A stretch of 64,000 nt of DNA from Rhodococcus qingshengii JCM 15477 (lineage in GTDB: Bacteria > Actinomycetota > Actinomycetes > Mycobacteriales > Mycobacteriaceae): positions 2,338,501 to 2,402,500 of the forward strand of contig NZ_CP096563.1 of assembly GCF_023221595.1 (NCBI RefSeq), read 5' to 3'. The number at the start of each line of letters is the position of its first letter. The stretch's first letter is position 1. Of the stretch, positions 5,459-6,819 are shown one piece after another. Below the pieces are notes generated by a model. The model was given only the letters and a program-made list of their open reading frames with translations. It did no database searches and was not told the DNA's origin. A program made the position numbers and the translations under genes.

Positions 5459-5505
5459 GAGGAACACCCTATGTGGATCGCCGAGAGGTGCATTCGACCA
5501 GGCCG

Positions 5506-5531
5506 GGAACAGAGTCGCTGACTCCCGTGTT
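5506..5531 (+). promoter_or_regulatory. SigH-type autoregulatory promoter
   Basis: GGAAC (5506-5510), exactly 18 nt, then GTT (5529-5531) fits the actinobacterial SigH/SigR consensus GGAAY-N18/19-GTT. The expected transcription start is about 5539, just before an in-frame ATG at 5543. The same spacing occurs upstream of the mycoredoxin gene. No transcript data are available here. Confidence 0.72.
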
Positions 5532-5542
5532 GGTACCAGTTG

Positions 5543-5665
5543 ATGAAACTTGTCCCGAGAAGCGAAGGAGCGACCGTGCTGGCTGTGTGTGAGCCACCAC
5601 CGGCCCGTGGGTCGGATCTTCAGTTGGCGGTAACCTTGATCCCTACGGCTAGTGAAGGGATCAGA
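5543..5665 (+). other. In-frame N-terminal extension of SigH (possible long isoform)
   Basis: From ATG 5543 the frame runs without a stop for 41 codons into the sigH core start at GTG 5666. The SigH-type promoter would start a transcript only 2-4 nt before this ATG, so the induced message could be read from it as a leaderless mRNA. Streptomyces SigR has a comparable induced, N-terminally extended, unstable isoform (known for that family). Presence here is inferred. Confidence 0.5.
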
Positions 5666-6364
5666 GTGCTGGAACACGACCGGCCCAAGGACGAACCGTC
5701 AGGGGTAGCTGAACCTATCGACGGCGCAGTGTCCGAAACGCCCGAAACTGCGGATGAGTTGATTGCCCGGTTCGAGCGCGACGCGCTCCCGCTGCTCGAC
5801 CAGTTGTACGGCGCTGCCCTGCGCATGACGCGGAATCCGGCTGATGCCGAGGATCTCGTGCAGGAGACGTACGTCAAGGCGTACACCGCTTTCCGTTCGT
5901 TCCGTGCCGGTACCAACCTGAAAGCCTGGCTGTACCGGATTCTCACGAACACCTACATCAACTCGTACCGCAAGAAGCAGCGCCAACCCGCGCAGTATCC
6001 GACGGACGAGATCACCGACTGGCAGTTGGCCGCCACCGCCGAGCACACTTCGACGGGGCTGCGATCGGCCGAGGTGGAGGCGCTCGACGCGTTGCCTGAC
6101 GACGACATCAAGGCGGCGCTGCAGTCGCTTCCCGAGGAATTCCGTATGGCCGTGTACTACGCCGATGTCGAAGGATTCCCGTACAAGGAGATCGCGGAGA
6201 TCATGGGCACACCCATCGGAACGGTGATGTCGCGACTGCACCGTGGTCGCAAGCAATTGCGTGGTCTTTTGGCCGATGTCGCAAAAGACCGGGGATTCAA
6301 TCGGGACGGCGCGGTCGACACAGCCACAGTCGCAGCCACCGAGACGGAAGGTGTCACACGATGA
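5666..6364 (+). CDS. sigH: ECF sigma factor SigH/SigR (thiol-oxidative and heat stress)
   Basis: RNA polymerase sigma factor for disulfide and heat stress. The 232-residue form begins at GTG 5666 with GAAGGGA 5 nt upstream. Region 2 is clear ([37 protein letters not shown]) and region 4 is the helix-turn-helix [30 protein letters not shown]. It overlaps the anti-sigma gene by ATGA, so the two are co-translated. An extended start at ATG 5543 is also possible. Homologue of Rv3223c; targets in this window plausibly include its own gene and mycoredoxin. Confidence 0.95.
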
Positions 6365-6642
6365 GTGAGCAGGACGAATTCGAAAGGCTCGACTGCTCGG
6401 CAGTCATCGCCGACGTCTGGTTGATGCTCGACGGTGAATGCGACGATTCGAGTCGTGCTCGCCTGCAGCGTCATATCGACGATTGTGGATCGTGCCTCGA
6501 GGCCTACGGGATCGAAGAGAAGGTCAAGAGCCTGATCAACCGTAAGTGCGGCGGAGACCATGCGCCGGAAAGCCTGCGTCAGAGGCTCACCGTCGAGTTG
6601 CGTCGGACCATCGTCATAACGACTACCGAAACCGACAGCTAG
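6361..6642 (+). CDS. rshA: Redox-sensing zinc anti-sigma factor RshA/RsrA
   Basis: A 93-residue ZAS-family anti-sigma factor that holds SigH inactive until its thiols are oxidised. The hallmark H-x3-C-x2-C (HIDDCGSC) is at residues 38-45, with further cysteines at about positions 11 and 61. Four-base overlap with sigH. Synteny with Rv3221A supports the call. Confidence 0.94.
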
Positions 6643-6688
6643 TCCGTCAGCGAAGATCTGAGCGGCAGCAGTCGGAAGGCAGTAACGC

Positions 6689-6730
6689 CGAGGGGCGGGG
6701 AAGCAATGCTTCCCCGCCCCTCGGACGTTT
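6689..6730. terminator. Bidirectional intrinsic terminator between rshA and bL37
   Basis: A GC-rich stem (CGAGGGGCGGGGAAGC with its complement, loop AAT at 6705-6707, ending about 6723) is followed by GACGTTTTG. It lies between convergent genes and can end both transcripts. Confidence 0.85.
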
Positions 6731-6744
6731 TGTTGCGCTACATG

Positions 6745-6819
6745 TCAGGCGTTTGGACGCTTGCCATGGTTAGCGGCGTTGCCCTTACGGCTGCGCTTCT
6801 TACGACCACGCTTACCCAT
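6745..6819 (-). CDS. Large-subunit ribosomal protein bL37 (24 residues)
   Basis: A tiny basic protein, MGKRGRKKRSRKG...HGKRPNA, 24 residues with 11 Lys/Arg. This matches the actinobacterial ribosomal protein bL37 first seen in Mycobacterium smegmatis ribosome structures, in family length and in its NHGKRPNA end. The start is backed by an AGGGAG ribosome site 9 nt upstream. It is below common ORF length cut-offs and easily missed. It has its own promoter space, shared with the divergent biotinyl-carrier gene. Confidence 0.9.
   Translation of the reverse strand: MGKRGRKKRSRKGNAANHGKRPNA

Follow-up and report, generated by a model that had tools for sequence, protein, structure and literature searches.

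The sigH-rshA locus described here most likely carries two promoters, each serving its own translation start, in the manner of SigR' of Streptomyces, with GTG 5576 as the start of the long form (we put the probability of this reading at roughly 0.74). During thiol or oxidative stress, release from RshA would allow SigH to transcribe the locus from an upstream promoter, P2, with its +1 at ~5541, and the Shine-Dalgarno (SD) sequence GAAGGAG and GTG 5576 on this mRNA would direct synthesis of a SigH that is 30 residues longer. When stress is absent, a housekeeping promoter, P1, whose -10 box TAACCT would lie within the codons of the extension, would give rise to a shorter mRNA from ~5643, on which the SD GAAGGG and GTG 5666 would produce short SigH. 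We infer both the sigma factor that would act at each promoter and the production of the two proteins. By analogy with Streptomyces SigR', we expect the long form to be induced by stress and short-lived. Judged from its DNA, the locus is a conserved example of an arrangement already known from SigR', and its value lies in the details.

The locus lies in a 64,000-nucleotide stretch of DNA (the window), and the coordinates of its features are listed in Table 1. It has an ECF sigma factor of the SigR/SigH type and a zinc-binding anti-sigma gene directly downstream. The two genes form an operon, with the stop codon of sigH overlapping the start codon of rshA (ATGA), and H-x3-C-x2-C can be seen by eye in the RshA translation. 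A ybaK-like gene on the opposite strand, beginning at ~5458, diverges from sigH. Long SigH is 99% identical in R. erythropolis NBRC 15567 and Rhodococcus sp. P-2, which places the genome in the R. erythropolis group. Sequence and conservation together support P2, the SD-linked long start, the TANNNT spacing, the short start with its SD and the overlap with rshA as elements of the layout.

Table 1. Features of the sigH-rshA locus (positions are those of the window).
Feature	Position	Strand	Remarks
P2, SigH-type promoter GGGAAC-N18-GTT	5505..5531	+	From sequence and conservation; predicted +1 ~5541
ATG of the original prediction	5543..5545	+	Possible lineage-specific leaderless or short-leader start; 5/27 same-genus loci
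Shine-Dalgarno GAAGGAG of long start	5564..5570	+	Precedes GTG 5576 by 5 nt
N-terminal extension, 30 codons, from GTG 5576	5576..5665	+	Begins VLAVCEPPP; open, in frame, start conserved
TAACCT, candidate -10 box of P1 (short transcript)	5631..5636	+	Inferred start ~5643
Shine-Dalgarno GAAGGG of short start	5654..5659	+	In-frame GAAGGG-N6-GTG in 109/121 family loci
sigH, short form	5666..6364	+	GTG 5666 to stop; TIGR02947, 373.5 bits (cut-off 251.55)
rshA/rsrA, zinc-binding anti-sigma factor	6361..6642	+	TIGR03988, 108.9 bits (cut-off 62.5)
Intrinsic-terminator-like hairpin, 17-pair stem, 3' of rshA	6688..6724	+	Pattern match only

The original prediction placed a SigH-type promoter, GGAAC-N18-GTT, upstream of sigH, and both the sequence (GGAAC at 5506-5510, 18 nt, GTT at 5529-5531, then 11 nt to ATG 5543) and its conservation in relatives bear this out. 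GGGAA[C/T]-N18-GTT is kept in all 27 anchored loci of the same genus (26 genomes, since L028 and L036 share one, which has 7% contamination). At the level of the family, [G/C]GGAA[C/T]-N18-GTT was present within the 450 nt preceding the conserved core in 113 of the 121 anchored loci among the matches listed, and in 117 when N18 or N19 was allowed, compared with 1 of 121 for a control in which the N18 pattern was reversed. These loci were hand-picked among the matches listed and include a single g29 locus and no loci from g2, g3, or g4; two of the 123, the truncated L035 and the Mycobacterium-like L121, were without an anchor and were left out, so the set of 121 holds no mycobacteria. Among 15 mycobacterial loci examined, the P2 pattern was present in six, each with a spacer of 19, and was not found in the other nine. 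As a separate observation, the region from P2 to the long start of Mycobacterium L182 and L170 contains a TGTCGGTAG-type stretch, followed in L182 by TANNNT, which may be a PafBC-type damage promoter. For other families of the class we applied a looser rule (spacer of 17-19, 500 nt, no reversed control), by which P2 was present in 54 of the 60 anchored loci, the sample being 64 loci of which four were without an anchor and six were without P2; L225, which has no anchor, was left out.

Within the genome itself, GGGAAC-N16-19-GTT occurs 244 times versus 123 for the reversed control, so a single match to P2 counts for little and it is conservation that carries the case. The spacing of P2 equals that of the M. 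tuberculosis SigH consensus, GGAAYR-N17-18-GTT (PMC4803200), the consensus being counted from a six-base box. We placed the +1 of P2 at ~5541 based on the numbering in PMC10012870, in which the fifth base (C) of GGAAC is at -31. The same source, citing Stepanek 2022 (10.1093/femsle/fnac014), names SigE or SigH as the factor that most likely transcribes sigH of R. erythropolis, with GGAAC in all four SigH-dependent promoters analyzed; the sigH of that study is from R. erythropolis CCM2595, a member of the same species group, and is likewise associated with SigH/SigE and GGAAC boxes. P2 itself is therefore probably not new, as the literature already provides the SigH consensus and the transcription of R. 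erythropolis sigH (PMC4803200, PMC10012870).

The long form was originally proposed to begin, on a leaderless transcript, at ATG 5543. This codon is in frame with GTG 5666, the frame is open over the 41 codons between them, and GTG 5666 is preceded by a good ribosome site, all as had been described; GTG 5576 with its strong SD, and TAACCT, had not been part of that description. Based on sequence, the long form most likely starts at GTG 5576, 33 bases downstream of ATG 5543. Of the 27 same-genus loci, 24 have an SD-linked in-frame start in the interval from P2 to P1, and across the family such starts number 95 in the SigH frame versus 9 out of it (among the matches listed). When the other families are included the numbers become 153 in frame versus 19 out, counted over related sequences rather than independent events, and the SigH frame accounts for most of the starts in 31 of 33 groups (g11 and g21 are the exceptions). 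Loci without P2 were left out of this comparison and of the N-terminal motif analyses below, and the 172/175 obtained there is no independent rate. By the rule used, there was no SD-linked start in 28 of 107 family loci among the matches listed, including 14 of 14 in g27. This layout is retained within the genus as well as outside it.

It is possible, though we favor it considerably less, that the 5' end of the P2 mRNA coincides with or adjoins ATG 5543 and that leaderless translation yields a SigH longer by 41 residues, with or without the GTG 5576 form in addition. The predicted +1 is only 2 nt from this ATG, so leaderless use is conceivable in its species group, and the sigE mRNA of M. tuberculosis, a relative, is reported to be leaderless (PMC4921905). 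Four g30 loci (L122, L123, L124, and L129) are also consistent with such a mechanism: an in-frame GTG falls on their predicted +1 (10th base after GTT), and an SD-linked long start was not found in them. Since g30 was assigned to Tsukamurella by its resemblance to L169, these four are candidates for a truly leaderless long SigH in Tsukamurella-like genomes. ATG 5543 is, however, limited to five same-genus loci that belong to one species group and have identical DNA there (L009-L013), an in-frame TGA overlaps its position in three sister genomes (L014-L016), and an in-frame stop follows soon after P2 in two more loci (L028 and L032); in addition, a strong and conserved SD-GTG lies 33 nt downstream. 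Stops in close relatives had been named as evidence against the extension, and those in L014-L016 count against its first 11 codons, while the last 30 are open and in frame in relatives. What stands of the original prediction of a SigH-induced long isoform is thus the placement of the promoter and the conserved layout, and what falls is the leaderless start at ATG 5543 as a general device.

We consider it unlikely that P2 is mainly a SigE promoter, or one shared by SigE and SigH, in which case the long isoform would report envelope rather than thiol stress. A P2-type motif is also present upstream of the genome's own trxB (L281), a classical SigH/SigR target, which argues against this reading. 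A second trxB-like gene (L282, contig C5 of the same genome) scores above the TIGR01292 cut-off, and GGAAY-N17-19-GTT was not found in the stretch scanned upstream of it. Pointing toward SigE, in C. glutamicum the GGAAC class is one that SigH and SigE alike recognize, and sigH of R. erythropolis is said to be transcribed by either of them (PMC10012870). The -35 box also differs between groups, with GGAAC usual in the Rhodococcus family and GGAAT in 49 of the 54 P2 loci of other families, and the preference for GGAAC could add SigE control in the former. Within the two-promoter, two-start model, SigE might also use P2, since the -35 box of this promoter is GGAAC.

Judged from its position, TAACCT probably serves as the -10 box of the housekeeping promoter from which the short form would be made. 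In 91 of 109 family loci (among the matches listed), a TANNNT precedes the short GTG at a distance of exactly 35 nt, and every other offset from -80 to -6 has it in at most 8 of these loci; the set of 109 consists of the family loci with in-frame GAAGGG-N6-GTG and excludes the 12 of 121 without this pattern. The TANNNT fixes a GTA valine codon, which accounts for 0 of 159 valine codons in the sigH core of the genus and ~1% in five genes of the window. A similar TANNNT is present farther upstream in g11 and part of g9. A scan with the sigma-70 consensus found no match for a -35 box and did not find P1, and for this reason P1 is put forward as a candidate. For the SD of the short start, a relaxed search for GARGGN-N6-[A/G]TG found the GAAGGG form in 109 of 121 loci and nothing in the other 12, with no GAG form or synonymous variant, although GAA makes up only 20-26% of the glutamate codons in the sigH core. 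In a single genome (G207, locus L074), the sigma core is in a different reading frame from the extension and the short start, due to either an assembly error or a real frameshift.

Codon conservation of the extension, which had been suggested as a check on its translation, was weak within the genus. The dN/dS of the extension (5576-5629) was 2.63 in clade A (10 loci), with lower ratios in the two shifted frames (~1.1 and 0.5), and 0.51 in clade B (12 loci), with higher ratios in the shifted frames (~1.6 and 1.2), compared to 0.03 for the sigH core. As these ratios give no strong protein constraint on the extension, we rejected codon conservation as proof of translation, and we also rejected the open frame by itself because upstream open frames are common in these genomes (one in L010 has 315 codons). 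The shifted-frame ratios of clade A, along with the mycobacterial loci without P2, slightly lowered our confidence in the model. The weak constraint would fit a P2 mRNA that simply has a longer leader, with GTG 5666 used on both transcripts, the upstream SD-GTG weak or unused, and one SigH produced, and P1 together with the short SD explains the most conserved part of the extension. We nonetheless regard this as unlikely, since the upstream SD-linked starts prefer the SigH frame and the first ten residues after the long start are conserved in a frame-specific manner.

For those ten residues, compared across 32 groups, the z value was 20.1 in the SigH frame versus 5.5 and 5.4 in the other frames, the z being measured against residue shuffles with no regex and all three frames exceeding their own shuffles. 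A weaker test, based on alignment of the N-termini, gave a mean z of 1.10 in frame versus 0.45 and 0.36 (78 pairs). The long N-termini share a rough motif, VxVLCxERP or, more generally, [V/M]-x-V-[L/V]-[C/T/V]-x-[E/D]-R-P, which is shared by many loci of Rhodococcus-related bacteria, Nocardia, and mycobacteria, as well as by some of the class's other families. Examples are VPVLCAERVRP (g10), VPVLVEERP (g23), VSVQCLERP (R. spelaei), VPTVCLERP (some mycobacteria), VGATCLERP (f16), and MLVCEERP (f20), the corresponding sequence in the window being VLAVCEPPP; the motif is absent from several groups, such as g11, g9, f7, f8, and f22. A regex for the motif, chosen post hoc, matched at 0.33 in frame versus 0.03 and 0.00 in the other frames and 0.00 in shuffled sequences. 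A cysteine close to the N-terminus was rejected as evidence, its frequency (mean over groups) being 0.38 in frame versus 0.51 and 0.31 in the other frames. We tentatively suggest that the motif might be a dedicated tag of long SigH/SigR that marks only the stress-made form and sets the duration of the response; it may act as a Clp degron or mediate contact with RshA or RNA polymerase.

The conserved upstream SD-start would also fit a long form that is the only or main SigH, with GTG 5666 an unused internal codon and the annotated start misplaced, but this is very improbable in view of the GAAGGG-N6-GTG and the fixed TANNNT spacing in the family loci described above, and of the citation in PMC5472188 of a peptide that corresponds to the short start of SigH in M. 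tuberculosis.

The SigR' isoform of Streptomyces (Kim et al., 2009, 10.1111/j.1365-2958.2009.06824.x, cited in PMC5472188, PMC4921905, and PMC6282962), whose description refers in its title to an unstable isoform "in actinomycetes", is the nearest counterpart to the proposed long SigH. As summarized in PMC5472188, Streptomyces sigR has the promoter sigRp2, an upstream ATG, a 58-residue extension, instability that depends on Clp, and a GTC start for the short form. The order of parts in Rhodococcus is the same as in sigR-rsrA, with an upstream autoregulatory promoter (predicted here) and then an in-frame start, a vegetative promoter (a candidate here) downstream of the long start, and a zinc anti-sigma gene downstream. 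The details differ, as the extension has 30 residues in Rhodococcus versus 58 in SigR' and an unlike sequence, the starts are GTG and GTG versus ATG (long) and GTC (short), and the promoter box is GGGAAC versus GGGAAT. Stress induction and Clp-dependent instability are features of Streptomyces SigR', to which the Rhodococcus form is likened from its sequence. The Clp half of the Streptomyces loop was not seen, as a scan of the stretch preceding four ClpP-like genes gave no GGAAY-N17-19-GTT. Among our own groups, f15 loci have P2, then MGST..., then a region ending in VTGTD or VPGTD, with an SD-linked start, by the rule used, in 4 of 6; the match to the 58-residue SigR' extension in PMC5472188 suggests that f15 represents Streptomycetaceae.

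M. tuberculosis sigH is similar in having an upstream promoter recognized by SigH and a second one downstream (sigHp1 and sigHp2), and differs in that a WhiB7 site is reported at sigHp2 and no long isoform is described in the portions of PMC4921905 consulted. For another sigma factor of M. tuberculosis, SigE, alternative promoters (three, one of them driven by SigH) likewise produce isoforms that differ in N-terminal length, although there, unlike in the proposal for Rhodococcus sigH, stress leads to shorter isoforms (PMC10027907). The layout is not universal, as C. glutamicum sigH is reported to have SigA-type promoters (PMC3489674). Among the papers listed in searches of the open-licence literature, no title or abstract opening described a long SigH isoform in Rhodococcus or the N-terminal motif. 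If the two-promoter, two-start reading is true, a widely conserved DNA layout would explain a possible brief, self-limiting response to oxidative stress, and the corrected start shows experimenters which codon to change. A promoter box fixed within coding sequence and a shared N-terminal motif together offer precise targets for mutation, and such mutations would bear on the existence, in organisms other than Streptomyces, of a short-lived sigma isoform made under stress.

Hairpin sites of the type listed in Table 1 numbered 2, versus 1.0 expected in shuffles. On the minus strand at 6745-6819, convergent to rshA, there is also a very basic ORF of 24 residues (beginning MGKRGRKKR), which presumably resembles the small actinobacterial ribosomal protein bS22.
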